A stretch of DNA of 64,000 nt from Candidatus Desulfofervidaceae bacterium (GTDB lineage Bacteria > Desulfobacterota > Desulfofervidia > Desulfofervidales > Desulfofervidaceae): contig JALWFG010000011.1 in NCBI GenBank assembly GCA_027038965.1, positions 248,001-312,000 of the forward strand, written 5' to 3'. The notes below the pieces were generated by a model. The model was not told where the DNA came from and made no database searches. It worked only from the letters and a program-made list of their open reading frames with translations. Position numbers and translations under genes: made by a program. Below, piece by piece: positions 2,000 to 56,289 of this stretch; the first letter of the stretch is position 1; the number at the start of each line of letters is the position of its first letter.

Positions 2000-2428
2000 A
2001 TGCCAGGGAAGATTCTTATTGTAGATGATGAAAAAGCAATGCTAGAGTTGTTAAGCATGACTTTTAGACATAAACTGTGTATGAGGTGATTACGACCACT
2101 GACCCTGTGGAAGTACCTGAAATTTTGGAAAAAAATAATATAGATGTGGTTATCAGTGACCTTCGTATGCCAGAAATAGATGGAATAGAGCTTATGGATT
2201 ATGTGAAACAGGTAGATGAGACTATTCCTTTTATTGTTATAACAGCTTATGGTACAATTGAATCAGCGGTGGAAGCAATGAAAAAAGGTGCTTTTGATTA
2301 TATCACCAAGCCTTTCAGGAAAGAACAGATCATTTTAACAGTTGAGAGAGCGATGAAAATGCATCAGTTACAAAAAGAAAATTGAACTTAAAAAGCAACT
2401 GGAACAAATACGCAAAAAGCAGGTATGA
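2000..2428 (+). pseudogene. Response-regulator receiver remnant with two frameshifts
   Basis: ATG 2000 begins MPGKILIVDDEKAML, the first strand and acidic pair of a receiver domain, but this frame stops at 2087-2089. The receiver continues in another frame (about 2077-2385) with VVISDLRMPEIDGIEL (phospho-Asp), TAYGTIESAVEAMKKGA and the conserved KPF lysine. A second shift near 2381 restores the first frame, giving IELKKQLEQIRKK and a stop at 2426-2428 that overlaps the next gene's ATG (2425). Even if both shifts are sequencing errors, the protein would be a ~140-residue receiver plus helix with no AAA+ or HTH domain. It is a partner of the kinase remnant and a paralogue of the receiver at 4457. 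Confidence 0.7.
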
Positions 2429-4467: not shown

Positions 4468-5845
4468 AATCTTGGCTGTAGATGATGAAGTAGACATGTT
4501 AAGGCTCTTAGAAAGAATTATTAAAAGCAAAACTGGTTATGATATAGTAACTACTCCCTCTTCTGAAAGGGCAATCAAATTTATTCACAAAGAATATTTT
4601 GATCTCGTTTTGATTGACCTAAAAATGCCTGAAATGAATGGAATGGAGTTGCTTAAAAAAATCAAGGCCATTGAACCCGATACCGCCGCTGTTATCATCA
4701 CTGCTTATGGAACTGTTGAATCGGCAGTAGAGGCCATGAAACTTGGGGCCTTAGACTTTATCACCAAACCCTTCAAGCAAGAGCAGATCTTACTTACTAT
4801 CAACCGAGCTATGGAAATACAGTCCCTAAAGAGGGAAAACCGGCGTTTAAAAGAGGAATTAAGTCAACAAAGGGATGCCGATTTTATTGTTGGCAAAAGC
4901 CCTGCTATGCAATCAATTTATAAATACCTCTTGCAGGTTGCTCCATCTTCTGCCCCTGTAGTAATTACTGGAGAAACCGGTACTGGTAAAGAACTTATAG
5001 CCAGATTGGTTCATAAACATAGTAGAAGAAAAGGTTCTTTTGTAGCCATAAATTGCAGTGCCTTCCCAGAAACTTTAATAGAAAGTGAACTATTTGGTTA
5101 TGTAAAAGGGGCATTTTCCGGGGCCATTAAAGATAAAAAGGGGTTAGTAGAAGAAGCCGATAATGGAACACTATTTCTAGATGAGATAGGTGATTTAAGT
5201 CTTTTAATGCAGACAAAGCTTTTACGATTTCTTCAAGAGGGAGAATTTCGTCCAGTAGGTAGCACTATAACCAAAAAGGCCAACGTGCGAATTATAGCTG
5301 CTACCAACAAAGATTTGGAAGAACTCATTAGAGAAGATAAATTTAGAGAAGACCTTTATTATCGCATCAATGTAATTAAAATTCATATTCCTCCTTTAAG
5401 AGAAAGAAAAGAAGATATTCCACTTTTAGCTCATTACTTTTTAAAAAAATATGCTGAATTAAATAAGAAAAATATAAAAGGATTTTCTGAAAAGGCAATG
5501 ATTGAATTAATTAACGGAAGCTGGCCAGGGAATATCAGACAACTGGAAAATGTCATTGAAAGAGCAGTCATTATTTGCCAAAAAGAAGAAATTGGCCCCT
5601 TGGACATAGATCCTTTATCAAAATCAGTTCAAACTCCATTTGGTCAAAAAGACATCTCCTCCATTTCCTTTAAAGAAGCCAGGAACAGGGCCATACTAGA
5701 CTTTTATTATCATTATTTGACAAATCTTTTGACCCAATGTAAGGGAAATGTCTCTCAAGCAGCAGAAAGGTGTGGATTAAAAAGACAGTATCTTTATCGC
5801 CTTATCAAGCTTGTAGGCCTCGATCCCGATAATTTCAGAACTTAG
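4457..5845 (+). CDS. NtrC-family sigma-54 response regulator
   Basis: A 462-residue activator: receiver domain (1-120; VDDE acidic pocket, phospho-Asp in VLIDLKMPEMNG, TAYGT, KPF), AAA+ domain (~140-380) and Fis-type HTH (~425-455; NVSQAAERCGLKRQYLYRLI). Walker A is GETGTGKE and Walker B is GTLFLDEIG. The sigma-54 contact loop reads GAFSGA rather than GAFTGA, a mild Thr-to-Ser change that keeps the hydroxyl. The start overlaps the kinase gene, so the kinase at 2425 is the partner. The promoter at 5968-5984, 120 bases downstream of its stop, is of the class this protein activates, making 6032-8711 the likely target. Confidence 0.9.
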   Translation: MPGKILAVDDEVDMLRLLERIIKSKTGYDIVTTPSSERAIKFIHKEYFDLVLIDLKMPEMNGMELLKKIKAIEPDTAAVIITAYGTVESAVEAMKLGALDFITKPFKQEQILLTINRAMEIQSLKRENRRLKEELSQQRDADFIVGKSPAMQSIYKYLLQVAPSSAPVVITGETGTGKELIARLVHKHSRRKGSFVAINCSAFPETLIESELFGYVKGAFSGAIKDKKGLVEEADNGTLFLDEIGDLSLLMQTKLLRFLQEGEFRPVGSTITKKANVRIIAATNKDLEELIREDKFREDLYYRINVIKIHIPPLRERKEDIPLLAHYFLKKYAELNKKNIKGFSEKAMIELINGSWPGNIRQLENVIERAVIICQKEEIGPLDIDPLSKSVQTPFGQKDISSISFKEARNRAILDFYYHYLTNLLTQCKGNVSQAAERCGLKRQYLYRLIKLVGLDPDNFRT

Positions 5846-42697: not shown

Positions 42698-44356
42698 CTA
42701 GCCAGCAGAGATAAAGAAACTAATGGTAAAAAGGGCCAAAACAAAGATTACCCCAATCCCTATAGGTCTGGGTACAGGGAGTGGTTTTTTACTTAAGGCG
42801 ATGATTGACGTTACCAAGTCACTCATTCCTGCTTGAATGGCCGTTCTGACATCATTAAGGAAGAAACAGAATTTGACAAGCCCTCTTCCTGCCATTCTGT
42901 AAAAATAATCAAAATCTAATACGATGCCTTCATGAGGAGCAAAATGTTCTTTAAAAAGCATAAAGACCAATCCAGAGAGCATAAACAACTGAATAATACC
43001 AATCACGTGAGCAGGGGCAAAGGCATGATAATGGAGAGGATAGTATGGAAGCACATGAAAAAGCACCTTGGGATATACACCAATAAAGACACATAGAAAT
43101 GCAGTTAAAATCATGGCCAACTGCATATTAATAGGCGCTTCTTTTGTCTCTATTTCCTCATTAGGGGCAAAGAAGGCAAAATAGCAAAGTTTGACAAAGG
43201 AAAGGAAGGTACCTACTGCCCCTAAGAGGAGAAGAAGATAGAGGATAGTCATATGTTCCTCAGCCGCTGCTAACATCACCATGCCTTTACTTACAAAGCC
43301 ATTGAAGCCAGGGGCGCCAGCAATAGAAAGAGAGGCTATAATACAGGTGATACAAGTGATGGGCATATACTTAGCTAAGCCTCCAAGTTGGGTTAGTTTT
43401 CTCTTGCCAGTCATATAAATTACCGAACCCATACACATGAACAGGAGTCCCTTATACAAAATGTGATTGAATACGTGAGCAATCCCACCGTTTACGGCTA
43501 GTTCTGTTCCAATTCCTACTCCAGCCACCATGTAGCCTACCTGACTTATAATATGGTAGGACAGCAATCTTCGGACATCATTTTGCATTAGAGCAAATAT
43601 GACACCATAAACTGCCATAATACCACCCATATAGGCAACCAACTCTGTTCCAGCAAAGCAACGGGCCAAAACATAAACGCCAGTTTTGGTGGTGTAAACG
43701 CACATAAAAACACTACCAGTGATTGTTCCTTCAGGATAGGCATCAGGGAGCCAAGTGTGGATGAAAATAAAGGCAGTGTTTAACCCAAAGCCGATTAAGA
43801 TAAGCAACCAAGCTAGCCCTCTTTCTATTTGTCCCACGTCTAAGCTACCAGTATTTGCCACATGGATTGCAATTCCTGCCAACAGGCAGCATCCCCCTAA
43901 TAGGTGCATGATGATGTACCTGAATCCTGCATCTAGAGCCTGTTTATCTCTGCGGTACCAAATTAGAAATACCGAAGCAACTGCCATAATTTCCCAGAAT
44001 GCATAAAGGCTGAAAAAGTCTCCTGAGAAAACTACTCCCAGTGAACTTCCTACATAAAGAAAGGCAGCAATGTGTTGACCATCATCTTCAACATGCAAGG
44101 CATAAAGCAAACCCAGAAAGGCAATGATGACAAATATGTAGGCTACTACCAAACTTAGCCTATCAACCTTTAATAATATGAGGTTGTAATTGAGAAAATG
44201 ATAAACCCAGCTTGTCCCATGTTTTAACTGAAGGATATCAATAAAGGCAATTACTGGAACCAAAAGCAAATAGGCCTTTTTAAGGCCCCCCCTAAATAGG
44301 GGGATAAGAAATGCCCCTAACAAAAAGATAAAGCCGGGAGGGATAGGTTTAATCAT
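42698..44356 (-). CDS. Antiporter-like membrane subunit (NuoN/MrpD type), third large subunit
   Basis: A ~552-residue multi-helix membrane protein of the proton-conducting family shared by complex I (NuoL/M/N) and Mrp antiporters. It has SGDFFSLYAFWEIMAVASVFLIW (helix 5 Glu), a helix-7-like LNTAFIFIHTWLPDAYPEG, the Lys-containing TTKTGVYVLARCF and GFNGFVSKG near the end. The start is ATG 44356, preceded by AAGGAGG, not the upstream in-frame codon at 44389. It is the last gene of the operon, overlapping the preceding small gene by 8 bases. Standard Mrp operons have two such subunits (A and D); this one is extra. Confidence 0.82.
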   Translation of the reverse strand: MIKPIPPGFIFLLGAFLIPLFRGGLKKAYLLLVPVIAFIDILQLKHGTSWVYHFLNYNLILLKVDRLSLVVAYIFVIIAFLGLLYALHVEDDGQHIAAFLYVGSSLGVVFSGDFFSLYAFWEIMAVASVFLIWYRRDKQALDAGFRYIIMHLLGGCCLLAGIAIHVANTGSLDVGQIERGLAWLLILIGFGLNTAFIFIHTWLPDAYPEGTITGSVFMCVYTTKTGVYVLARCFAGTELVAYMGGIMAVYGVIFALMQNDVRRLLSYHIISQVGYMVAGVGIGTELAVNGGIAHVFNHILYKGLLFMCMGSVIYMTGKRKLTQLGGLAKYMPITCITCIIASLSIAGAPGFNGFVSKGMVMLAAAEEHMTILYLLLLLGAVGTFLSFVKLCYFAFFAPNEEIETKEAPINMQLAMILTAFLCVFIGVYPKVLFHVLPYYPLHYHAFAPAHVIGIIQLFMLSGLVFMLFKEHFAPHEGIVLDFDYFYRMAGRGLVKFCFFLNDVRTAIQAGMSDLVTSIIALSKKPLPVPRPIGIGVIFVLALFTISFFISAG

Positions 44357-44555
44357 AGAAATCCTCCTTTTTCCTTGCAAAAGAACCAATGAATTTGATG
44401 ATGATTAGCAGCAAGAACGTACCTATAATTCCAAATACCGCATCTACTGAAGGCACATCATCCCACGGGAAAAAGTGATGATGTATTGGTAGAAAGCCAA
44501 TCACTACTGTTAACCCCACCAATACCCAAAAGATTGTCTTTAGCCGTGTTTCCAT
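44349..44555 (-). CDS. Small two-helix membrane protein of the mrp operon
   Basis: 68 residues with two hydrophobic helices (~8-22 and ~40-56) joined by a loop containing HHHFFPWDD. I do not recognise a family. It starts at the last base of the upstream antiporter gene stop and overlaps the next gene, so it is translated as part of the mrp operon. A structural subunit of the complex is likely. Confidence 0.65.
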   Translation of the reverse strand: METRLKTIFWVLVGLTVVIGFLPIHHHFFPWDDVPSVDAVFGIIGTFLLLIIIKFIGSFARKKEDFYD

Positions 44556-46051
44556 TAGTGCACCCCCATTATATTTTGAGTTGCAATGCTTGCTATTTTG
44601 AAGAAGTGGGTAAAGGCATCAGGAAAGATGCAGAAAACCACAGAAAAGATAGCGGTTATTACTAAGGGAACGACGACAAATGCCGGTGCCTCGCTGATAT
44701 GATTACCAGGATTGCTGGTTTGAGGCGACTTAAAGAATGCATTGATAATTACTGGGAAAAAGTATACGGCGTCTAAAATGGCACTAGCAAGAAGCACAAC
44801 CAAAAAGATGATATGTTTTGTTTCCATTGCCCCCACACAGAGGTACCATTTGCTTATAAACCCACATATCGGAGGAATACCTGTTAAGCCGATGGCACCG
44901 ATGGTAAAGGCGGCCATCGTGAATGGCATTTGTCTTCCGATGCCATTCATGTCGCTTATATATTCTTTGTGAGTTTTGACGTAAATGGCTCCGGCACAAA
45001 GAAACAATGTGATTTTCATGAAACCATGAAAGGCGATATGGAGCATACTTCCTTTAATGGCTTCAGGAGAAAGGAGGGCAGCTCCCAAGATAATGATGGA
45101 GAGGTTGTTTATGGTTGAAAATGCAAGTCTTCTTTTCAAGTGGTCTTGAGCAATAGCAAGAAGATTGGCCACAATAATGGTGAATGAGACTACGTAAGCA
45201 AGAATGATCCAGAGGTTTAAATCAGACAGAAGTTTTGGTCCAAAGACATAAAGAATAACCCTCAAGCAACAGAATACCCCGGCCTTGACTACGGCCACGG
45301 CGTGAAGCAAGGCACTCACAGGCGTTGGGGCGATCATGGCAGAAGGAAGCCATTCGTGCAAGGGCATAATGGCTGCCTTGGATCCAAAACCAATCATAAA
45401 GGTAAGAAACAAGAGCCGAAGTTGGTTTGCTGTTCCATGTCCAGCGAGAAATCCACCTGGAGCAAAGTCAACGCTGCCGGTAAGGTAATAAGTCCATCCA
45501 ATGGAAAACAGTGCAAAACAACCACCTGTGAGGAGGTAGGCCAGATATTTGCGTCCCGCTTTAATAGCTTCGGGTGTTTCTTTATGGGCTACCAAAGGAA
45601 ATGTAGATACTGTGAGAACTTCATAAAAAAGGTAAAGAGTCACTAAGTTCCCAGACATGGCTACACCAACGGCCGAAAAAATAGCAATAGCAAAGCAGAA
45701 AAAGAATCTGGTTTGGGCGTGTTCTTTGAGACCTCGCATATAACCGATTGAGTAAAAGGAAACCGCTATCCAAAGTCCTGAGGCCAATAGGGCGAATATC
45801 ATTCCAAAGGCATCTACCCTAAACTGTAAAAACACATGGGGCCAAATTTGGAACAAGGTAAACTCTATCATTTTACCGCTCAGCACTATCGGTAGCATGG
45901 AAAGAACAATTGCAAACTTGATAACCGAAGCTGCAATGCTCCAAAAATCCCTTAGGTTGGGATGCCTTTCTCCTGTGAAAAGGATAAGGAAGGCAGCAAC
46001 TAAGGATGTCAATATTGCCAACAGAGGCTTAATTGAATGTACCATTTCCAT
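44555..46051 (-). CDS. Antiporter-like membrane subunit (NuoL/MrpA N-terminal type)
   Basis: A 498-residue protein with ~14 helices: SGNLVTLYLFYEVLTVSTFPLVAHKETPEA (Glu in helix 5), FGSKAAIMPLHEWLPSAMIAPTPVSALLHAVAVVKAGVF (helix 7/8 Lys and His), and GLTGIPPICGFISKWYL. The LPSAMIAPTPVSALLHAVAVVKAG stretch is the NuoL/MrpA-like signature. It lacks the C-terminal DUF4040/MbhE extension of full MrpA; those parts are encoded separately at 48388-48914. AGGAGGG precedes the ATG. Confidence 0.83.
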   Translation of the reverse strand: MEMVHSIKPLLAILTSLVAAFLILFTGERHPNLRDFWSIAASVIKFAIVLSMLPIVLSGKMIEFTLFQIWPHVFLQFRVDAFGMIFALLASGLWIAVSFYSIGYMRGLKEHAQTRFFFCFAIAIFSAVGVAMSGNLVTLYLFYEVLTVSTFPLVAHKETPEAIKAGRKYLAYLLTGGCFALFSIGWTYYLTGSVDFAPGGFLAGHGTANQLRLLFLTFMIGFGSKAAIMPLHEWLPSAMIAPTPVSALLHAVAVVKAGVFCCLRVILYVFGPKLLSDLNLWIILAYVVSFTIIVANLLAIAQDHLKRRLAFSTINNLSIIILGAALLSPEAIKGSMLHIAFHGFMKITLFLCAGAIYVKTHKEYISDMNGIGRQMPFTMAAFTIGAIGLTGIPPICGFISKWYLCVGAMETKHIIFLVVLLASAILDAVYFFPVIINAFFKSPQTSNPGNHISEAPAFVVVPLVITAIFSVVFCIFPDAFTHFFKIASIATQNIMGVH

Positions 46052-46064
46052 TTTCTATCCCTCC

Positions 46065-47570
46065 TTAAATGTTCGCTGGGATAGCGAATTTAATAATAGA
46101 AGCAATGATATGTCCGCTAAACACACCAATTAGAATGATGCCAATGGCTACCAAAAACATGGGAATCAGCATCCCAATAGGCGCCTCATCGAACTTTACT
46201 ATTTCAGGTTGTCCTCCGTCGTGAGCGTAGGCAGGTTCCCTTGGTTCTAAATAGGCGTTTTCTATTACCCTGAAGAAGACAGCCACGTTGAATAAGGTAC
46301 TTGTCAGTATGACTGCAATAAACACCCACTTATGGGCTGCGAGGGCACCAAGGATGAGATACCATTTGCTGAAAAAGCCACACATGGGTGGAACGCCTAT
46401 GACAGAGAGGGCTCCTACAATCAGAACTGCCATAGTAAGTGGCATTTTTTTATGAAGAAACCGAAACTGATAAATGTCTCTGGTTCCGGTCTTGTAAACA
46501 ATTGCCCCAGCGACAAGAAAGAGGCATGACATCATAAACGCATCGTTTATGATGTGTAAAATGGCACCTGTTAAGGCCATCCGATTGGCTATGGCCACTC
46601 CAATAACAATATATCCTACTTCTGCTACAAGGATATAGGTGAGCATACGTTTAAAATCCCTTTGGGCCAAGGCCATAATGGAGCCAAAGAGCACTGCACC
46701 CGCTGCCAGCCATCCCAAAATATTGTGAGCGATAGGCATAACTTCAAGAGAGAAGTGAGGACCAAAGACGCTAAAGATAATCCTGAAAAGCACATAAGCG
46801 CCAACCTTGGTCATGGTAGGAGCCACTAAGGTGCTTACCGATGAGGGAGCCAGGGTGTAGGCATCTGGTAACCAAATATGAAGGGGAAATAGTGCCATCT
46901 TCAAACTTATACCTACAATAAAGAATACAAAGGCCGTTAACACTACCTTTGAACCATAAAGATGTGGAAGCAGTCGGGCCAAATCGGCCATATTTAAAGA
47001 GCCAGTAACGATATAAAGATACCCAACGCTCAAAAGATAGAAACATGCGCCAATAGTTCCCATGATTACATAATTAAAAGCGGCCATAGGGGCATGTTTT
47101 TCTCCCATGGCGATCAAGGCATAACCAGAAAGCGAGGTGATTTCTAGAAAGACATAGAGGTTAAACATATCTCCAGTTACTACAATTCCTAAGAGACCAG
47201 TGATTTGGAGCAGATAAAGAGAGTAAAAATAGGGAATTTTGCTCTTTGGGATTTCCTTTTCTGCACTAGGCCCAGAGTACCATAACGACATGAGACTAAC
47301 GAATGATACCAAAACCAGCATGGCGGCATTCAAATGGTCTACTACATACTCTATGCCCCAAGGAGGAAGCCACCCGCCTTGGTAATAATGAATAGTCCCA
47401 TGAAGGATTACCTTCTCAAGAAGCATGGCTGAGAAGATAAAGGATGCCAATGTAGCCAAAAAGGCAATTGGATAGCAAAGTTTTCGCTTTAACAACCCTA
47501 AAATGACCACCAAAAATGCGGTCATCAGGGGAACCGTAACGATTAATACAGGCAAGTTTTTGCTAATCAT
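46065..47570 (-). CDS. mrpD: Mrp antiporter subunit D
   Basis: A 501-residue antiporter-like subunit. VTGDMFNLYVFLEITSLSGYALIA, GISLKMALFPLHIWLPDAYTLAPSSVSTLVAPTMTKVGAYVLFR and GVPPMCGFFSKWYL are standard MrpD/MnhD motifs with the conserved Glu, Lys and His. It starts 8 bases inside the end of mrpC. In gene order it occupies the position of MbhH/MrpD. Confidence 0.88.
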   Translation of the reverse strand: MISKNLPVLIVTVPLMTAFLVVILGLLKRKLCYPIAFLATLASFIFSAMLLEKVILHGTIHYYQGGWLPPWGIEYVVDHLNAAMLVLVSFVSLMSLWYSGPSAEKEIPKSKIPYFYSLYLLQITGLLGIVVTGDMFNLYVFLEITSLSGYALIAMGEKHAPMAAFNYVIMGTIGACFYLLSVGYLYIVTGSLNMADLARLLPHLYGSKVVLTAFVFFIVGISLKMALFPLHIWLPDAYTLAPSSVSTLVAPTMTKVGAYVLFRIIFSVFGPHFSLEVMPIAHNILGWLAAGAVLFGSIMALAQRDFKRMLTYILVAEVGYIVIGVAIANRMALTGAILHIINDAFMMSCLFLVAGAIVYKTGTRDIYQFRFLHKKMPLTMAVLIVGALSVIGVPPMCGFFSKWYLILGALAAHKWVFIAVILTSTLFNVAVFFRVIENAYLEPREPAYAHDGGQPEIVKFDEAPIGMLIPMFLVAIGIILIGVFSGHIIASIIKFAIPANI

Positions 47571-47949
47571 TTTTCCTTATCTCCAATATTTCATTTTCTT
47601 CTAAAGTTCCATACTGTCTATGGATGAGGATGATTAATGCCAGGGCCACACCCGTTGTCGCAATCCCGACTACAATCGCTGTAAGCATAAGAACATGAGG
47701 CAGAGGATTTATGTAATTAAAGGGATTGATGTGATGAATTACCCCATGTGCTTCCTCTGGAATGATGGGAACCGTAGCTCCCTTTTTGCAACCAATGGAT
47801 ACATAATATAGAATTATAGCCGTTTGAAAGATGTTCATCCCTATTAGCTTTTTCACAAGGTTTCTTTTTCCCATCATTCCATAAAAGCCAATCATCATTA
47901 AGACGATATATATCCAGTAATTGTAATGGCTAACTATGAAATCCATCAT
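47563..47949 (-). CDS. mrpC: Mrp antiporter subunit C (NuoK-like)
   Basis: 128 residues, three helices as in NuoK/MnhC. LVKKLIGMNIFQTAIILYYVSIG and ALMLTAIVVGIATTGVALALIILIHRQYG-like segments (near 85-115) are diagnostic. There is a hydrophilic loop between helices 2 and 3 that is longer than in NuoK. ATG 47949 overlaps the mrpB stop by 4 bases. Confidence 0.88.
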   Translation of the reverse strand: MMDFIVSHYNYWIYIVLMMIGFYGMMGKRNLVKKLIGMNIFQTAIILYYVSIGCKKGATVPIIPEEAHGVIHHINPFNYINPLPHVLMLTAIVVGIATTGVALALIILIHRQYGTLEENEILEIRKND

Positions 47950-48404
47950 TTAAATTCCCCCCTTGTCCGCTTGGATTTGGAAGAAAGGGCGAGCATAATG
48001 GCTACCATGACTGCCATAACCGTAATACCTACCCCAGTTTCTACTGATAAGATTCCTAGGGCTCGGCGCTCTGCAATGGCTACAGGAAAGGGCAATTTAG
48101 AATAATCAAGGAAATTACCACCAAACAAAAGGCATAGTGCCCCTGTACCGGCATAGATAAAGACCCCGATAGCGACAAAGGCAATCATCAATTTTTCAGG
48201 TAAACGTTTTTTGACTTCATCCATTCCATAAACCACAGCCAATAAGATGAAGCTCGCTCCTAAAATAACCCCCCCTTGGAATCCCCCTCCAGGACTTTCA
48301 TGTCCGTGGGCAATTACATAAAGGCCATAAATTTGAATAAAGGGAATGAGTAACCTTGTCATTGTTTTTACAATCACATCTTCGTATTTAGTAATCATCT
48401 TCAT
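47946..48404 (-). CDS. mrpB: Mrp antiporter subunit B (MnhB)
   Basis: 152 residues with four helices. The MnhB hallmark YGLYVIAHGHESPGGGFQGGVILG is complete, with RRALGILSVETGVGITVMAVM near the end. It overlaps the preceding small gene by 17 bases and mrpC by 4. Equivalent to MbhF in archaeal membrane-bound hydrogenases. Confidence 0.9.
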   Translation of the reverse strand: MKMITKYEDVIVKTMTRLLIPFIQIYGLYVIAHGHESPGGGFQGGVILGASFILLAVVYGMDEVKKRLPEKLMIAFVAIGVFIYAGTGALCLLFGGNFLDYSKLPFPVAIAERRALGILSVETGVGITVMAVMVAIMLALSSKSKRTRGEFK

Positions 48405-48672
48405 CCCTCCTTAAAAGAAAAATACAGGCAATCCCTGCGGTGAAAATCACAGTTGTTTCTCCCATTGTGTCATAACCTCTGTAATCAGCTACCACAGATG
48501 TTACGGCATTAGGCGTAGCCGTTTCCTCTACTGTTTTTTCTATGTACCGGGGCGAAACATGTAAGGCGGCCGGAGCATTGGGATCACCCCATGGAGGCAT
48601 ATCCAATGTTCCGTAAATTAACAATGCCCCAGTAATCAACACAGCCAAGAAAGATAATGCTTTTAGACTCAA
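48388..48672 (-). CDS. MbhE-like subunit (separate piece of MrpA C-terminus)
   Basis: 94 residues with helices at ~5-22 and ~70-88. Between them is ASPRYIEKTVEETATPNAVTSVV-like sequence (actual reading from 39: SPRYIEKTVEETATPNAVTS) ending in DYRGYDTMGETTVIFTAG. This NAVTSVVxDYRGYDTLGE pattern is the MbhE domain, normally fused at the end of MrpA. Here it is its own gene between the DUF4040 gene and mrpB. Confidence 0.82.
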   Translation of the reverse strand: MSLKALSFLAVLITGALLIYGTLDMPPWGDPNAPAALHVSPRYIEKTVEETATPNAVTSVVADYRGYDTMGETTVIFTAGIACIFLLRRDEDDY

Positions 48673-48914
48673 TCTTTTGACCTCCTTGTAGTTTGGTAAA
48701 TTGCGGCAACGAAGAAGAGTGTGCTCACACCTGCTCCAACCGAGGCTTCAGTAAAGGCCACATCTACCGCGCCCATTTCCGTCCATAGCATTGCCATACA
48801 AAAACTATAGGCACCTAGGATCACAGCCGCACTTAATAGGTCCTTTACCATCATTGCCCCAATGGCGCAGATTACTACAAATAAAAGAATGACTAAATCT
48901 AATTGCCAGATCAT
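48669..48914 (-). CDS. MbhD-like DUF4040 subunit (separate piece of MrpA)
   Basis: 81 residues with three helices: KDLLSAAVILGAYSFCMAMLW then DVAFTEASVGAGVSTLFFVAA. The DVAxTEAxVGAG motif identifies the DUF4040/MbhD domain, usually within MrpA just before the MbhE part. Its ATG overlaps the mrpG stop and its stop overlaps the MbhE-like start, each by 4 bases. Confidence 0.84.
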   Translation of the reverse strand: MIWQLDLVILLFVVICAIGAMMVKDLLSAAVILGAYSFCMAMLWTEMGAVDVAFTEASVGAGVSTLFFVAAIYQTTRRSKD

Positions 48915-49237
48915 CTATAATCCTCCTTTTTCCATGGTTTTAAACCACATACAAAGGCCGCTTTGGCAATGGCGTGTGTTGCAGTAGGATTGGCCAGAAA
49001 GATGAAAACCGAGATGAGAAGAATTTTTAGAGCCAGCAGAATAGAGCCATGATATGCCTCGTAGAGCGCGAGACTGGTGATAATCATAAGAGACCCTAAG
49101 GTGTCGCACTTTCCTGTACCATGCATCCGACAGTAAAAATCTGGGAATCGAAGTAACCCTACTGTGCCACTAAATAGGAAAAAAAGTCCCACCAAAGACA
49201 GCCCAATGGTTATAATATTGACAATTTGACTAAGCAT
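48911..49237 (-). CDS. mrpG: Mrp antiporter subunit G (MnhG)
   Basis: 108 residues, three helices. The MnhG signature GTVGLLRFPDFYCRMHGTGKCDTLGSLMI is intact and NPTATHAIAKAA ends the domain. Start and stop abut mrpF and the DUF4040 gene. Confidence 0.9.
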   Translation of the reverse strand: MLSQIVNIITIGLSLVGLFFLFSGTVGLLRFPDFYCRMHGTGKCDTLGSLMIITSLALYEAYHGSILLALKILLISVFIFLANPTATHAIAKAAFVCGLKPWKKEDYR

Positions 49238-49509
49238 CAGACCTCTCCTTTTTTCTCAAAGAATTTGGCAATGGCCACAGTGCCAATGAAATTGAGCAAG
49301 GCATAAACCAAAGAAATATCTACAAACATGTCTACTCGGGCATAAATGAAGGCCATGAGAAGTAGCACTACTGTAGTCTTAGTGCCAAAGACATTTACAG
49401 CCACAATTCTATTCCATGCCCCTGGCCCAAACACGACCCTATAGAAGCAAAGCAGGGCTAAAAAACTAATTGCCAGTGATAGTCCCAAAAAGAAATTTGT
49501 CATTGTCAT
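49237..49509 (-). CDS. mrpF: Mrp antiporter subunit F (MnhF)
   Basis: 90 residues with three helices. CFYRVVFGPGAWNRIVAVNVFGTKT and the following ALLNFIGTVAIAKF are the MnhF pattern (GPsxxDRxxAxN) with Asp-Arg replaced by Asn-Arg. Three bases lie between it and mrpE. Confidence 0.88.
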   Translation of the reverse strand: MTMTNFFLGLSLAISFLALLCFYRVVFGPGAWNRIVAVNVFGTKTTVVLLLMAFIYARVDMFVDISLVYALLNFIGTVAIAKFFEKKGEV

Positions 49510-49512
49510 TTC

Positions 49513-50136
49513 TTATGCCTCCTGTAAGATGTGGGCAAGTTCACCTACAAAGGCATGATCTGCTTCCACAAACACATGGGCAACCCGATCTTCCATTTCC
49601 CCAGAGAGCAGATCTTCAGCTACGGCCTTGTCAATTGCATGGACATAATACTCACCTTCGCGAATATCCACTGTAATAGTACCGGGAGTGAGGGTAATAG
49701 AATTGGCAAACGTGACTAAAGAAACATCGCTTTCTAGTTTGGATTTAAACCGAATGATTTCAGGATCAAGAGGCATTTTAGGGCTCAAAGCCAGTTTGGC
49801 CACGTGAACATTAGCGAGCACGATTTGATAGATTAACCACGGGATGTAGAGGGCAAACCTTTTGGCGATAGTCAACCGATGAGGAGCGAGAATGTTCATA
49901 AAAAGCAGATCGTGGGAGATAAGGGCTACCAATCCACAGGAGAATACCCCCAGACCAACATGGAGGGGATCAGTCCTTCCAGAGCATAGATACCACGTGA
50001 CTGCCATAATGAAGAACGTAGCCGTAAAGCTCAATGCCCCAGCCCATTCAGATTTAACAGCCTGGGACTGCATCCACATTCTATCTTTTACTGTTTTGAT
50101 CAAATCATCCGCATAAGCAAGCTTTGTGACTTCCAT
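49513..50136 (-). CDS. mrpE: Mrp antiporter subunit E (MnhE), extended
   Basis: 207 residues. Two N-terminal helices and the MnhE core (RFALYIPWLIYQIVLANVHVAKLALSP, then ANSITLTPGTITVDIREGEYYVHAID) are clear. The N-terminus (~35 residues with a charged start) and C-terminal tail are longer than in the ~160-residue standard form. First gene of the antiporter subunits proper, ten bases after the degenerate regulator gene, with GAGG upstream. Confidence 0.88.
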   Translation of the reverse strand: MEVTKLAYADDLIKTVKDRMWMQSQAVKSEWAGALSFTATFFIMAVTWYLCSGRTDPLHVGLGVFSCGLVALISHDLLFMNILAPHRLTIAKRFALYIPWLIYQIVLANVHVAKLALSPKMPLDPEIIRFKSKLESDVSLVTFANSITLTPGTITVDIREGEYYVHAIDKAVAEDLLSGEMEDRVAHVFVEADHAFVGELAHILQEA

Positions 50137-50146
50137 CTTTTCCTCC

Positions 50147-51070
50147 TTAATTTTTTATTGGCTCCATAAGATTATATTTTCTTAGTTTGGCATAAAGGGT
50201 ACTCCGGCTAATGTGCAGTTTTTTGGCCACTTGGAGCTTGTTCCAATTGTTTTCTTTTAGCATTTTTAACAGAAATTCCCTTTCATTTTCTTCAAATGAG
50301 CTTGTTTTTTGTGTTTGAACCCTTTCTTTAATTTTATTAGGCAGGGCATCTACATCAATTACATTTGTGCTGCTCATAAGATACGCATATTGAACTGTAT
50401 TTTCCAACTCCTTGACGTTTTCAGGCCAGGAATAGCTCATTAAAAGCTGTATTGCTTCATTGGAAAAGGTCTTTTCTCCACTCTGCTTAGCAAGTTCATG
50501 TAGAAAATATTCAATCAACAAAGGAATATCTTCCCTCCTCTCTCTTAAAGGGGGAACAACAATAGTAATAATGCCCAGACGATAATAAACTTCTTCCAAA
50601 AAGGTGCCCTTTTCTGTTTCCTCTTTAAGATTTTTCTTGCTTCCTGCCATAATTCTTATCTGAGCGGGGATGCTTTCACTTCCGCCTAGCCTTTCAAAGA
50701 CTTGGGTTTCCAAGAGTCGTAACAACTTGAGCTGAGAGATTGGAGATAATAACTCTATATTATTTAAGAATATCGTGCCTTTATCTACAATTTCAAAGCG
50801 TCCCTTTTTTCTCTCGGTTGCCCCATAAAATGCCCCAATTTCATGTCCAAAAAGTTCACTTTCAAGCAGCATTTGGGGATATGCTTCACAGTCAACGGAG
50901 ACAAACGGTTCCCTACTCCGAGCGCTATTTAAATGAATTGCCTTTGCAATCAGTTCCTTTTCAGTTCCCTCTTCGCCTTCAATCAATACTGGAGCCTCTG
51001 TGGGACCAAGTTCAATAATCATTTGGCAAATTTGTTGCATTTTTACCGAGTATGTTTCAGGCCAAATCAC
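50147..51070 (-). CDS. Degenerate sigma-54 enhancer-binding protein (no receiver, broken ATPase)
   Basis: A ~307-residue AAA+ plus Fis-HTH protein with no N-terminal sensor. All three functional elements of an enhancer-binding protein are altered: Walker A reads GEEGTEKE (normally GESGTGKE, ~32-39), the sigma-54 loop reads GAFYGA (normally GAFTGA, ~79-84) and Walker B reads FLNNIE (normally FLDEIG, ~101-106). The HTH (NWNKLQVAKKLHISRSTLYAKLRKYNL) is intact and nearly the same as in the regulator at 53062. It probably binds DNA but cannot hydrolyse ATP or open sigma-54 promoters, so it may compete with the intact protein. GTG 51070 is the likely start because AAAGGAGAG precedes it; the in-frame TTG at 51100 lies inside a palindrome. 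Confidence 0.85.
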   Translation of the reverse strand: MIWPETYSVKMQQICQMIIELGPTEAPVLIEGEEGTEKELIAKAIHLNSARSREPFVSVDCEAYPQMLLESELFGHEIGAFYGATERKKGRFEIVDKGTIFLNNIELLSPISQLKLLRLLETQVFERLGGSESIPAQIRIMAGSKKNLKEETEKGTFLEEVYYRLGIITIVVPPLRERREDIPLLIEYFLHELAKQSGEKTFSNEAIQLLMSYSWPENVKELENTVQYAYLMSSTNVIDVDALPNKIKERVQTQKTSSFEENEREFLLKMLKENNWNKLQVAKKLHISRSTLYAKLRKYNLMEPIKN

Positions 51071-51081
51071 CGTTCTCTCCT

Positions 51082-51100
51082 TTGTCCAAAAAATGGACAA
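51082..51100. promoter_or_regulatory. Palindromic operator before the degenerate regulator
   Basis: TTGTCCAAAAAATGGACAA: perfect 7-base arms TTGTCCA and TGGACAA with an A5 spacer. It ends right beside the Shine-Dalgarno of the regulator gene and 20 bases after the USP stop. The same arms recur upstream of the USP promoter (52975, 53033, 53072 regions). Confidence 0.7.
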
Positions 51101-51120: not shown

Positions 51121-51963
51121 CTAAGGCACAATTAACGTTGGAACTGGCGCGTATTCTGACACCTTATAACAGGGACTTCCAAACAGTAGTTCTTTTAATC
51201 GATTCTTTTTGTTTGTTCCCATTGTTACAGAAGTTGGGTGATAATCCTTTATGGCCTCAATGATTTCGTCTGTAACCTCCCCTGTATAGAAATGCAGTTC
51301 TGCATTGAGTCCCCGATTGATGCTGTAGGCGCAGAGTTCTTCTAGTTTTTTTCTAAGTTCTCGAAGTTCCTTCAGGCTCAGTTTCTCGCGAATTACATTT
51401 ACAATGTCTATCTTTTTAATGATGTTTTTCAGATTAAACAGGTAATAAAAGGCCTTTTGAGATGCAGGTGACCAATCGGTTGGGAAAAGCACATGTTCGA
51501 AAATCTTTTTAGGTGTGTTGAAACCAGGCATTTTTTTGTCTAAAAGAAGAAGTGGTTTGACCGTTCTTTGGACCAAGCTTCTGATAACTGGACCATAGGA
51601 CTTTTTGAAAAATGGGAAACTCCGCTTTTCTGCTAATCCTAACATAACCAAATCCGCATCTTCTTTTTCAGCAATACTTAGAATTATAGGAATTGGGTTG
51701 CCTACCTTTATGTACTCTTTGCAATTAAAACCGTCTAATTTTCGAATCCAATTCTCAAAACGAATGTTGGCGATGGCCTTTAACCTTTCTTCTTCTTCCT
51801 TGAGGTAGCCTCCGTAAGGTACAAAGGCTACTTTTTCTCTTTCAATCACATGGAGAAATACCACTTCCCTTGCCCCTACGTTCTGAAGTTCCTTCAGAGT
51901 ATCAGCCACATTGATGCCGCCCTCTTTAAAATTGGTTGCATATAAGACCTTTTCTACTCTCAT
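51121..51963 (-). CDS. Tandem universal stress protein (Mrp-cluster member 2)
   Basis: 280 residues, two USP domains. It carries LHVIEREKVAFVPYGGYLK near residue 37, identical but for one residue to the tandem USP in the Rnf cluster. The second nucleotide loop is degenerate (GTNKKNRLKELLFGS, lacking the second Gly), and the first reads LGLAEKRSFPFFKKSYG. ATP binding is doubtful in both halves. It lies 24 bases downstream of the next tandem USP and 20 bases before the operator of the degenerate regulator. Confidence 0.85.
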   Translation of the reverse strand: MRVEKVLYATNFKEGGINVADTLKELQNVGAREVVFLHVIEREKVAFVPYGGYLKEEEERLKAIANIRFENWIRKLDGFNCKEYIKVGNPIPIILSIAEKEDADLVMLGLAEKRSFPFFKKSYGPVIRSLVQRTVKPLLLLDKKMPGFNTPKKIFEHVLFPTDWSPASQKAFYYLFNLKNIIKKIDIVNVIREKLSLKELRELRKKLEELCAYSINRGLNAELHFYTGEVTDEIIEAIKDYHPTSVTMGTNKKNRLKELLFGSPCYKVSEYAPVPTLIVP

Positions 51964-51987: not shown

Positions 51988-52845
51988 TTATGGTACTACT
52001 AATGTTGGCACTTCAGACATTTCTGCCACCCAAAATGAAGGGCTTCCAAACAACAGCTCTTTTAGGCTTTGCTTTTTAGGTTTACCAATGGCAATAGCCG
52101 TTGCTTTGTGTCTTTCCGCCGCCTGGATGATTTGTTCCGCAGCGTCACCGGTATAAAAGTATGTCTCGGCAGGTAAGCCTTCTCTTTTTAAAAAGTTAAA
52201 GGTTTCTTCTAATTTTCTTTTAAAACTTTTTAAAGTAGGGGTAGCAACCTTTTCATTTATGACATGAATTACATCAACTTCTTTAATGAGTTTCTTAAAG
52301 CCTAGCAAAAAAGCACAGGCATGATTCGCTGAAGGAGACCAATCCGTAGCCAAAATAACATGCTCAAAGACCTCCTTGATCCTGCTCTTAAAGACCTCTT
52401 CCTCTTTGTTGATGAGAAGGACTGGGACAGGAGAACGTCTGATTAAACTAGCAATGGTAGAGCGCCCATAAATTGTTTCTAGAAGGGCAACAAACTTTGA
52501 TTTTTTCCGTTTTCCAGCAACGACGAGCCCAATGTCCTTATCTTTTTCTATTGTTCTAAGAATTTGGGCTACAGGGATTCCTACTTCTACCCGAATTTCC
52601 GTTCCGATTCCCTTCTTTTGCATTTTTTCTGCGAGACTTTCAAAGTAGGCTGTGGCAATTTCACGCAACCGCATTTCCTCATCCTTTAAGTACCCACCGT
52701 AAGGCACAAACGCTACCTTCTCCCTTTCAATGACATGAAGAAAAATTACCTTATTGAATCCTACTTCCTGACAATCAGAAAGAGTTTTCGCAAAGTTATA
52801 GGGAGATTCTGTTAAATCTGCCGCACAGAGTATTTTCTTACTCAT
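51988..52845 (-). CDS. Tandem universal stress protein (Mrp-cluster member 1)
   Basis: 285 residues, two USP domains; the family block LHVIEREKVAFVPYGGYLK is present near residue 35, followed by a DEEMRL variant of the acidic tail. The nucleotide loops are degenerate (GKRKKSKFVALLETIYG and GKPKKQSLKELLFGS). It is the first gene after a sigma-54 promoter and has AAAGGAGG before its ATG. It probably heads a transcript that includes the second USP, the degenerate regulator and possibly the mrp genes. Confidence 0.86.
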   Translation of the reverse strand: MSKKILCAADLTESPYNFAKTLSDCQEVGFNKVIFLHVIEREKVAFVPYGGYLKDEEMRLREIATAYFESLAEKMQKKGIGTEIRVEVGIPVAQILRTIEKDKDIGLVVAGKRKKSKFVALLETIYGRSTIASLIRRSPVPVLLINKEEEVFKSRIKEVFEHVILATDWSPSANHACAFLLGFKKLIKEVDVIHVINEKVATPTLKSFKRKLEETFNFLKREGLPAETYFYTGDAAEQIIQAAERHKATAIAIGKPKKQSLKELLFGSPSFWVAEMSEVPTLVVP

Positions 52846-52880: not shown

Positions 52881-52897
52881 AGCAAAAGATGTGCCAA
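52881..52897 (-). promoter_or_regulatory. Sigma-54 promoter of the USP/regulator/mrp unit
   Basis: On the minus strand TTGGCACATCTTTTGCT: the -24 GG and -12 GC are 10 bases apart and the match to the TGGCACG-N4-TTGCW consensus is close. It is ~36 bases before ATG 52845 and points at the USP genes. Three palindromic candidate activator sites lie 80-190 bases upstream. Confidence 0.82.
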
Positions 52898-52973
52898 ACA
52901 AATTAAGTTACGGAGAAAACATAGAAAAACAGCATTGACCTTTTTGTTGATAATTGGGAATACAGAAAATTGT

Positions 52974-53090
52974 CCAAAATTTAGACAGTTTGAAAATCTA
53001 AGGTAAAAAACCTTCTAATCAAGCATAATTTTGCCGTCCATCTTTTGGACAAACAGTTTGTCTAAGAAGTGGACACTTTTTTGTCCAATA
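52974..53090. promoter_or_regulatory. Cluster of three TTGTCCA-type activator sites
   Basis: Reading along: TTGTCCA-AAATT-TAGACAG near 52974, CCGTCCA-TCTTT-TGGACAA near 53033-53051, and a reversed-arm copy TGGACA...TGTCCA near 53072-53090 that reaches into the 3' end of the regulator gene. Half sites GTCTAA and TTTAGAC also occur. The first two share the N5 spacing of the perfect palindrome at 51082. Position and repetition fit enhancer sites for the Fis-type HTH shared by the two regulators. Confidence 0.65.
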
Positions 53091-55779
53091 GATTGTAGCG
53101 TTTAAGTTTGGAATAAAGTGTACTGCGGCTGATGTTCAATTTTTTGGCTACTCGCATTTTGTTCCAATTGCATTCTTCTAACATCTTCAGCAAAAAACGC
53201 CTTTCATTTTCAGCAAAAGAGAGGGTTTCTTTTTCTTCTTTTTCGGTGCCTCTTAAATGCATAGGAAGGGCAGTTTTCTCAATAAGTTCTCCCTTTGTAA
53301 GCACAAAGGCATGTTCAATGGTATTTTCTAATTCCCTTACATTTCCTGGCCAATCGTAATCCATGAGAATTCGCATTACTTCAGGGGTTACTCCCTTGAT
53401 GTGTTTATTTTCTTTTTCATTCAATTTTTTGATAAAATGTTCTACCAAAAGCGGGATGTCATTTTTCCTTTCCCTCAATGGGGGCAAAAGGATAGGAATA
53501 ACATTAAGACGATAGTAAAGATCTTCCCTAAAATTGCCTTTTTTGACTTCTTCAAGCAAGTTCTTGTTTGTGGCTGCAATGAGTCTTACATCTACCTTTA
53601 TGGTTTTGTTACCCCCCAAACGTTCAAATTCTTGAAATTGGAGAAGTCTCAAAAGCTTTACTTGAGATACTGGTGGAATGTCTCCAACTTCATCCAAAAA
53701 GACAGTTCCCCCATTTGCCAATTCAAACCGACCTTTTTTCTGAGATACAGCGCCAGTAAACGCCCCCTTTTCATATCCAAATAATTCACTTTCAAGCAAA
53801 GTTTGAGGATAGGCAGAACAGTTGATGACCACAAAGGGCTTATTTTTCCTGAGGCTTTTGGCATGGATAGCTCGGGCTACCAATTCTTTACCTGTTCCGC
53901 TTTCACCCAGAATGAGGACTGTGGCGTTTGTGGGAGCAATATCATCGATGAGTCGATATATTTGAAGCATCTTGGGGTCTTTGCCCACAATAGAACCATA
54001 CGAATAGGAAATGATTTGTTTTTTTAATGCCTTAAGTTTTTCTTCCTGTTGGACAATCCTTTTTATTACACCAGAGACCTGAGAAAGCATGATGTATACA
54101 AATCTAAAATCCTTAGAAGTAGCCTTTTTATTATTTAAGAACAATATTAATCCCCCTATGGGTTCACCCTCTTTAGAAATTGGGATAATAAAGGGATAAC
54201 TAGTGAGCCTTTTCCAGCAATGCAATTTAGCGGTAAAGTAGGGTTTTTTAGAGTTGTTTTTTAACAATTTTACGATTTGCCTTTGGCATTTTTCACATAA
54301 AGAGAGGTTGTTTTTGAGATTTTCTAAAGACATTTCAAACAGACTTTCTTTATCCGAAGTAAGGACAAGGGGCAAAACCTGTTTGTAAGGAAGTATTTCT
54401 TTAACCCTAGGCAAAATGCAGTTAAATACTTCTTTAAAGGTGTTTTTTTCTCCAACTGTCTGAGAAATATGGTAAAATGTTTCAATCTCTTTGTATGACT
54501 TTTCTAATTCTTTTGTTTGTTCAATAACCTTTTTTTGAAGATTTTTGCTTAACTCTTTGGTTTCTTCATGAAGTTTGGCGTTTTCAACCGCAATCCCGAT
54601 TTGATACCCTAAGGTTTGGAGAAAGTTCATTTCTTGCTCATCAAAATGATGCTCTTTTTTGAAGCCCATTTCAATTATACCAACGATCTCATTGGAGGCT
54701 ATTAAAGGAATGGCTATCAAGCTTTTGCAGTTAAGATTTTCGGGTTGGTTTGGGAAGACCTGTTTGGCATCTAACAAAGTAACTTGCTTTTCTGAGGGAG
54801 GGATATAAATGGCTTCAACCGTAGAAAATAGAGGTAGGTCTTCTTTGGATACCCCTTGGCAATATGCGAGGTAGGTATAGTTGTTTTCTACCAAATAGAT
54901 TATTAGGACTTCAGCTCCAAATGTTTCAGAAAGTTCTTGAGAACATATTTCCAAAACTTTGTCTAAGTCAATAGAACTAGTGATAGTGGTGGTAATTTTG
55001 TGAAGGGTAGTTAACTCATCATGGCGTTTTTTAAGTTCTTCGGCAGCAATCTTGGCGTCGGTGATATTTCTAATGACTACAATTGCGTAGATTACCTTAC
55101 CCCTTTCGTTTTTTATGGGATATACTCCAATGCTTAAATAAAGTGTGTGCTGTCCTTTCTTTTGGGTATGGATTTTTGTAGATGGCCTTCCTGTGGCAAA
55201 AACTTCCTTTACAGGACATACCTCGCCACAGGCGTTACAGGTGTTATCAGAACCAGATAAAATCTTAAAACATGATTTCCCAATGGCCTCTTCTCTGGAG
55301 ATATTAAGATATTTGAGAAAGGCAGAATTGATTTCTTTGATTTTAAAATTTTTATCTACGATTAGAATGTAATCTCGGATACTGTCAAAGGTGCCTTGAA
55401 GGAAGTTCTTCATTTCTATTAACATTCGTTGAGTGTTTAAAAGGCGTTTTTCAAGAAGTGTCCAGATAATCCTGGCGGTGTTGTGGTCTATGAGGTAAAT
55501 ATTGGAAGGTATTTCTTCGGCGATAGCCCTTTTAATCTCATCTTGACCAGTGATTTCAAGAACAATATCAACATTAGAAAATTGAAACAAATCATGATAA
55601 TCATTGGTGGTAAAAATCCCTGTTTTTTGAGCATATTTAAATCCGGGTGCATTTGGATTGATGTCGGCTACCCCAACTACATTGACAAGGTGGCTAAATT
55701 GGTCACTCATCAGGACATTAAGGATTTCATAACAGGCCTTTCCGCCACCCACTATGGCAATGTTCAATTTCTTCAGCAT
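53062..55779 (-). CDS. Large sigma-54 activator with NAD-like, PAS and GAF sensor domains
   Basis: About 905 residues. Order: Rossmann-like N-terminus (1-110; LNIAIVGGGKACYEILNVL, then VVGVADINPNAPG, as in nucleotide-binding sensors), PAS (~130-245) with a Cys set (CNACGEVCPVKE) that could bind a metal or cluster, GAF (~265-410), coiled linker, second GAF-like region with CEKCQRQ (~445-590), AAA+ (~615-850; GESGTGKE, GAFTGA, GTVFLDEVG all intact) and Fis-type HTH (CNWNKMRVAKKLNISRSTLYSKLKRYNLL). ATG 55779 is preferred to TTG 55788. It should activate the promoter at 52881. The Rossmann and Cys features suggest redox or energy-state sensing, which is inference. Confidence 0.87.
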   Translation of the reverse strand: MLKKLNIAIVGGGKACYEILNVLMSDQFSHLVNVVGVADINPNAPGFKYAQKTGIFTTNDYHDLFQFSNVDIVLEITGQDEIKRAIAEEIPSNIYLIDHNTARIIWTLLEKRLLNTQRMLIEMKNFLQGTFDSIRDYILIVDKNFKIKEINSAFLKYLNISREEAIGKSCFKILSGSDNTCNACGEVCPVKEVFATGRPSTKIHTQKKGQHTLYLSIGVYPIKNERGKVIYAIVVIRNITDAKIAAEELKKRHDELTTLHKITTTITSSIDLDKVLEICSQELSETFGAEVLIIYLVENNYTYLAYCQGVSKEDLPLFSTVEAIYIPPSEKQVTLLDAKQVFPNQPENLNCKSLIAIPLIASNEIVGIIEMGFKKEHHFDEQEMNFLQTLGYQIGIAVENAKLHEETKELSKNLQKKVIEQTKELEKSYKEIETFYHISQTVGEKNTFKEVFNCILPRVKEILPYKQVLPLVLTSDKESLFEMSLENLKNNLSLCEKCQRQIVKLLKNNSKKPYFTAKLHCWKRLTSYPFIIPISKEGEPIGGLILFLNNKKATSKDFRFVYIMLSQVSGVIKRIVQQEEKLKALKKQIISYSYGSIVGKDPKMLQIYRLIDDIAPTNATVLILGESGTGKELVARAIHAKSLRKNKPFVVINCSAYPQTLLESELFGYEKGAFTGAVSQKKGRFELANGGTVFLDEVGDIPPVSQVKLLRLLQFQEFERLGGNKTIKVDVRLIAATNKNLLEEVKKGNFREDLYYRLNVIPILLPPLRERKNDIPLLVEHFIKKLNEKENKHIKGVTPEVMRILMDYDWPGNVRELENTIEHAFVLTKGELIEKTALPMHLRGTEKEEKETLSFAENERRFLLKMLEECNWNKMRVAKKLNISRSTLYSKLKRYNLLDKKVSTS

Positions 55780-55862
55780 AGCTCGCAACCTGACATATTT
55801 CTGTTAGTTCAATAGAAATTTATCATGAGGATTAAAAATTGTCAAAGTTTCCGCAAGCTGGA

Positions 55863-55920: not shown

Positions 55921-56289
55921 TTAGGTAGTGGGTAGTGATTTAGGCAGATTTTGGGGGATTGTATCTAGTATAGTTACCCCTTTCCCTTTGTCTTTTCCCA
56001 TGAGATGTTTGAGTTCTTGGAGGATGCTTTCCATTGAGGCTTCAAATGTTTTTCTTAAATTATCTGCTTGGGCATTAAGTTCTTGACTGGCCGAAGAAAG
56101 CTCTTCTGAATTGGCTGCAATGCCCTGAACTGCTTTGTCTAGCTGAGTTAAAGCAACATTAACCTGATTGATTCCTTGAGTTTGTTCTTGTGAATCTGCT
56201 GTAATTTCAGCTACCAGGCTGGCTACCTTTCCACTAAACCCAACGGCTACCTGTTGAGCCAAACCCAGTTTGCTTATTTTTTTAAACAT
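55921..56289 (-). CDS. Internally deleted chemoreceptor (MCP) remnant or mini-protein
   Basis: 122 residues. The first ~20 (MFKKISKLGLAQQVAVGFSG) look like the cytoplasmic start of a methyl-accepting chemotaxis protein, and the rest is the coiled C-terminal helix of the signalling domain (QEQTQGINQVNVALTQLDKAV, then ANSEELSSASQELNAQADNLRKTF). The sensor, HAMP and hairpin tip are missing, so the two ends appear joined in frame. It retains AGAGGGG before its ATG and has its own terminator, so it may be expressed as a small helical protein. It cannot signal as a normal receptor because the CheA/CheW-binding tip is absent. Confidence 0.65.
   Translation of the reverse strand: MFKKISKLGLAQQVAVGFSGKVASLVAEITADSQEQTQGINQVNVALTQLDKAVQGIAANSEELSSASQELNAQADNLRKTFEASMESILQELKHLMGKDKGKGVTILDTIPQNLPKSLPTT

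Follow-up and report, generated by a model that had tools for sequence, protein, structure and literature searches.

A predicted pseudo-ATPase paralogue of a sigma-54 activator is conserved in usp-mrp operons and may act as a feedback brake

In a window of 64,000 nucleotides from a Candidatus Desulfofervidaceae bacterium (the whole stretch of DNA analysed here), the gene at 50147–51070 (minus strand) encodes a 307-residue paralogue of a bEBP (sigma-54 activator). That the protein is ATPase-dead and has been retained is well supported by comparison of sequences. Probably it is a pseudo-ATPase conserved across genomes, a paralogue of the likely controlling bEBP of the usp-mrp operon, and serves as a feedback brake.

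The frame is intact over 307 codons. Position 51070 was preferred as the start, AAAGGAGAGAACG-GTG, with a good ribosome-binding site ahead of the GTG; the ORF could extend to a TTG at 51100. The gene is separated by 10 bp from mnhE and by 50 bp from usp1. The protein consists of an AAA+ core, a lid and a Fis HTH, and lacks a sensor domain. Pfam returned Sigma54_activat (PF00158, 7e-54), the lid (PF25601, AAA_lid_14, 3e-26) and HTH_8 (PF02954, 1.2e-10), while NCBIfam gave sub-cutoff matches only (NifA, AtoC and similar). The AlphaFold2 model (pLDDT 80.1, pTM 0.64) showed a reasonably confident bEBP fold, and its best match among solved structures in Foldseek was ZraR (1ojl, E = 8.9e-28). By descent, the protein is a member of the bEBP family. 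Its own genome holds about 20 bEBP-like matches, the closest being the intact neighbour at 53062 (54% identity).

The motifs were compared with those of this intact neighbour. Walker A is GESGTGKE in the intact protein and GEEGTEKE in the dead one; Walker B has changed from FLDEVG to FLNNIE, the GAFTGA loop to GAFYGA, and the first arginine finger region from FREDLYYRL to FLEEVYYRL. The sensor I Asn (AATNK to AGSKK) and the sensor II Arg (WPGNVRELEN to WPENVKELEN) are also changed, and the segment before the P-loop that aligns with GSIVGK of the partner is absent or different. Roles for Walker A, Walker B (D107 and E108 in PspF), the arginine fingers (R162 and R168), sensor II and GAFTGA have been established in PspF and NtrC1 (PMC7175178, PMC12054792). 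The dead protein is without an intact form of the GAFTGA loop, Walker A and B, arginine finger and sensor II of a functional sigma-54-activating bEBP. The HTH sequences are HISRSTLYAKLRKYNL for the dead protein and NISRSTLYSKLKRYNL for the protein at 53062. The original prediction had described an AAA+ fold with an intact Fis-type HTH, alterations in Walker A, Walker B and the sigma-54 loop, a recognition helix nearly identical to that of the neighbour, and an intact frame with a good ribosome-binding site packed tightly against mrp. All of this was borne out: the three altered motifs were found exactly as claimed, Pfam recovered the AAA+ domain, lid and HTH, and the HTH sequences and the 10-bp spacing agreed.

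Profile and pattern searches located orthologues in the mrp operon of 17 further genomes, all from the same phylum and belonging to the families coded f19, f51 and f148. The set therefore comprises at least 18 genomes including that of the window, with 17 full-length copies. The same classes of motif change were found in the mrp operons of the 17 other genomes. Walker A Gly was replaced by Glu, and the Walker B Asp, the GAFTGA Thr and the first arginine finger (equivalent to R162) were lost, in 18/18; the sensor II Arg was replaced by Lys in every full-length protein (17/17), and the second arginine finger (equivalent to R168) was lost in 12 of 17. All of the residues lost in the dead clade were kept in the intact Mrp-linked bEBPs (n = 12). 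The dead clade carries a signature of GTEK in Walker A (18/18) and KELEN at sensor II (17/17 full-length), both of which occur in the window protein; this protein also shares the location of the clade, within or next to mrp genes and downstream of an intact sister bEBP. With the family profile, no dead protein scored below 546 bits and no partner above 457 bits. Matches from Nitrospinota (L092) and Acinetobacter (L090) have a normal Walker A and were not counted as clade members.

Changes present in every dead protein fell on 5 of 13 catalytic or sigma-54-contact positions, compared with 12 of 137 other partner-invariant positions (Fisher p = 0.0075); under a less strict threshold, by which a change in half or more of the dead proteins sufficed, the enrichment at catalytic positions was not significant (p = 0.09). 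None of the 22 invariant HTH positions was lost in all dead proteins, and identity between dead protein and partner was 65–77% in the HTH against 52–56% in the AAA core. The Walker A Lys is kept in all dead proteins and the Walker B Glu in 13 of the 17 full-length ones, so the dead protein may still bind nucleotide. The same two residues would be the argument for an unusual but active bEBP in which ATP turnover survives the changes. We consider this highly improbable, given that the Walker A Gly, Walker B Asp, first arginine finger, sensor II Arg and GAFTGA Thr are lost together and that the lost residues have catalytic roles (PMC7175178, PMC12054792).

In the tree, the dead bEBPs formed one clade with a support of 100/99 when the motif columns were included and 100/98 when they were removed, and their nearest relatives were the intact Mrp-linked bEBPs. 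A convergent origin of the dead state was rejected, as the single clade persisted even without the motif columns. The dead copy of the window has a long branch of 0.99, whereas that of its partner measures 0.29. Because of this long branch, BLAST gives the short proteins from other lineages higher scores with the intact bEBP of the window than with its dead one. The orthology assigned to the short proteins rests on the tree, on shared derived residues and on position in mrp.

We also looked for a neutral pattern of substitution. Pairwise dN/dS (Nei–Gojobori) among the dead orthologues was 0.04–0.16 overall and 0.03–0.14 for the AAA core, similar to the values for the partners; the most distant pairs were saturated in dS, and the copy of the window was left out, as it has no close relative with the gene. 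Substitution among the orthologues is strongly purifying, the AAA domain included. A decaying duplicate kept by chance would account for the long branch of the copy in the window and for two genomes of the same family (G002 and G003) in which mnhE was present but no dead bEBP was matched. It fits poorly with 18 genomes that share the same lost residues, with the low dN/dS, and with the intact frame and conserved HTH, and we give it very little credence. For the family, decay was rejected on the grounds of conservation, dN/dS and frame, and to that extent the earlier statement that this is not a decaying gene holds. Constraint may have been relaxed in the lineage of the window itself, because its copy has the long branch, no close relative for dN/dS and a different gene order.

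The gene order in the window, on the minus strand, is intact bEBP (53062–55788), usp2 (51988–52845), usp1 (51121–51963), dead bEBP, mnhE (49513–50136), mnhF and so on. Both usp genes encode universal stress proteins; usp2 is the first gene of the inferred operon, to which usp1 and the dead bEBP also belong, and mnhE is the first Mrp subunit after the dead bEBP. The remaining genes of Mrp, a multisubunit cation/H+ antiporter, occupy 42698–49509 (minus strand). We take these, from family knowledge and gene order, to be mnhF, mnhG, MnhB-type pieces, mnhB, mnhC and three mnhD-type subunits. The intact partner has all catalytic motifs and consists of NAD-binding-like, PAS, GAF, AAA+ and HTH parts, the NAD-binding-like segment at its N-terminus (PF03447, ahead of PAS and GAF) scoring just under the cut-off. 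Before this gene, at 55921–56289, is a short piece that looks like the C-terminal end of a chemotaxis receptor. Elsewhere in the window, short ORFs at 1217–2385, just before an intact kinase/bEBP pair (2425–5845), resemble a truncated TauE-type exporter, a kinase C-terminus and a receiver fragment, and look like decayed genes.

In most other lineages with enough contig, an intact bEBP (receiver, AAA+, HTH) is followed by a histidine kinase, a receiver-kinase, a receiver and, on the opposite strand, usp; the order then continues with another usp and through mnhE, mnhB, dead bEBP, mnhF and mnhG to the rest of mrp. The receiver domain of these intact partners shows that their input differs from that of the window's partner, the output module being kept. 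The dead gene had been placed at the head of the Mrp operon, and it does adjoin mnhE. Its transcription unit probably begins with another gene, however, because the likely promoter lies upstream of the two usp genes at 52896 and because other lineages place the dead gene between mnhB and mnhF. Across the class of G076, dead gene and partner occurred together in 12 genomes and neither in 376, with the dead gene only in one and the partner only in one, both of these being fragmented drafts.

No match to mnhE was found in the one genome of the same genus that was searched, and mnhE of the window was 62% identical to that of G022 as against 55% and 50% to those of the family members. Taken with the family members that have mnhE and gave no dead gene, this points to acquisition as a module. 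An apparent exchange was seen in G443 (L086, 352–12181), where an f51-type bEBP stands upstream of an f19-type block: the intact bEBP, a lone receiver and the opposite-strand usp are f51-like, while the enhancer, promoter, usp, mnhE, mnhB and dead gene are f19-like. Such mixed ancestry implies that the dead gene moves with its operon.

A sigma-54 promoter with consensus -24/-12 elements (TGGCAC-N5-TTGCT) was predicted at 52881–52896 (minus strand), 36 bp before the usp2 ATG, by a scoring scheme of our own; rpoN is present. Predicted enhancer palindromes with one mismatch lie at 52971–52987, at 53035–53051 (64 bp from the former) and at 53059–53075, the last of these overlapping the intact bEBP gene at its 3' end. 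A perfect palindrome, TGTCCA-AAAAA-TGGACA, is located at 51083–51099, directly before the ribosome-binding site of the dead gene, and is the only perfect TGTCCA-N5-TGGACA in the 2.19 Mb genome. The window contains eight matches with up to two mismatches, a number reached by 0 of 100 shuffles. In other lineages TGTMCA-N5-TGKACA occurs at two positions 64–67 bp apart, about 100–185 bp ahead of a -24/-12 element that precedes usp; in L091 and L084 only one member of the pair reaches the threshold. Zero-mismatch palindromes number 0–2 per genome, and of the ten found in 12 genomes four are at the usp-mrp promoter and one is at the dead gene of the window. Comparative genomics thus predicts both promoter and enhancer for usp-mrp. 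With the predicted motif upstream of the operon and again beside the dead gene, the dead protein and its neighbour are likely to share sites.

Among the one-mismatch sites checked in the genome of the window, only the cluster at 52971–53075 is in enhancer position to a strong sigma-54 site; the others have none close by, and no wider regulon is claimed there. Within the dead gene, a sigma-54-like site (51024–51039, plus strand; one mismatch) that faces upstream is probably due to chance, since 24 of 100 shuffles equalled the match count of the window. An RNA hairpin at the ribosome-binding site, considered as a riboregulator, folded no better than shuffles (z -0.19).

The perfect palindrome raises the question of whether the dead protein acts independently of ATP, at sigma-70 promoters or as a roadblock or operator protein at 51083, and not via its partner. 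R. capsulatus NtrC, V. cholerae VpsR and Caulobacter NtrC lack GAFTGA and regulate sigma-70 promoters, and so resemble the dead protein in having a bEBP fold without normal sigma-54 remodelling (PMC10274813). They differ in having receiver domains and no intact sister within the operon; moreover, R. capsulatus NtrC needs ATP binding and Caulobacter NtrC its Walker residues (PMC10274813). The predicted sites of the window sit at a sigma-54 promoter, though the dead protein may act at sigma-70 promoters as well. The motif is concentrated at this one promoter, dead protein and partner co-occur, and a palindrome near the dead gene was seen in the window only and in none of the other lineages. We therefore regard independent action as unlikely, although the only perfect palindrome of the genome abuts the dead gene.

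The feedback brake would work as follows. Duplication of the bEBP controlling the operon, with loss of the sensor domain, would have given rise to the dead paralogue. The intact bEBP would bind the tandem TGTCCA-N5-TGGACA enhancer and activate the sigma-54 promoter at 52896, and the activated operon would make the dead paralogue along with the Mrp pump. The paralogue could then occupy the same palindromes through its almost identical HTH, join mixed AAA+ rings, or both. In a mixed ring its own ATP site would be disabled (Walker A, Walker B, sensor II), and so would that of its neighbour (arginine finger). Expression of usp-mrp would thereby be capped by negative feedback. Motif loss, conservation, common origin, purifying selection among orthologues and operon position are read directly from the sequences; binding of the dead protein to the same sites, mixed rings and net repression are what we infer from them, as is the role of anti-activator or repressor originally proposed. 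Mixed-ring poisoning and competition for DNA would be equally likely routes.

The opposite sign of action was also considered, with the dead protein binding DNA as a partner that does not hydrolyse ATP, and aiding activation through higher occupancy of the enhancer or a more stable ring. Selection has been purifying on AAA core and HTH alike, which implies that a surface of the protein is kept, and the tandem enhancer may have room for both proteins. In Azotobacter, the paralogues VnfA1 and VnfA3 bind the same enhancers and each other and co-activate, one being partly controlled by the other (PMC9542535). These carry N-terminal sensor domains, and loss of ATPase residues is not reported in the part of the paper covered here (PMC9542535). 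Loss of the first arginine finger, which acts in trans, should harm the ATP site of the neighbour, and a positive role is on balance not very likely.

The closest precedent for the proposed brake is D. vulgaris DVU2956/DVU2960, set beside the window protein by description only: a degenerate bEBP (GAFPGA) inside a sigma-54 operon controlled by a neighbouring intact bEBP (PMC4641369). For DVU2960 the GAFTGA substitution is the only change reported, and it is not among the bEBPs listed as lacking an N-terminal domain (PMC4641369). DVU2960 failed to bind the site of its neighbour (PMC4641369). This is a real caution for the shared-site model. A protein that holds back a bEBP, as proposed for the dead one, is seen in PspA–PspF (PMC6003685) and FleN–FleQ (PMC10723142). 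A literature search, with subscription journals mostly outside its scope, yielded no described ATPase-dead bEBP paralogue and no such conserved class among sigma-54 activators. PspA and FleN, as anti-activators, are not themselves bEBPs and are without the bEBP DNA-binding domain. Among kinases, pseudoenzymes that regulate active sisters are well known.

We put forward tentatively, as something that may or may not prove right, that the protein is a natural, dedicated dominant-negative bEBP: a pseudo-ATPase whose cis defects lie in the P-loop, Walker B and sensor II and whose trans defect lies in the arginine finger. Its gene would be part of the sigma-54 operon that it restrains, and would pass from lineage to lineage together with operon and enhancer. 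If the brake model is true, one operon encodes a pump and a disarmed copy of its own activator, a compact negative-feedback circuit, and nature supplies a means of finding out how many dead subunits can be tolerated by the ring of an AAA+ activator. With an enhancer and a promoter predicted, the model can be tested directly. A second enhancer and sigma-54 arrangement with the same palindromes was observed at 721–905 of L082, near a gene resembling NhaD; the regulon in that genome may include another antiporter.
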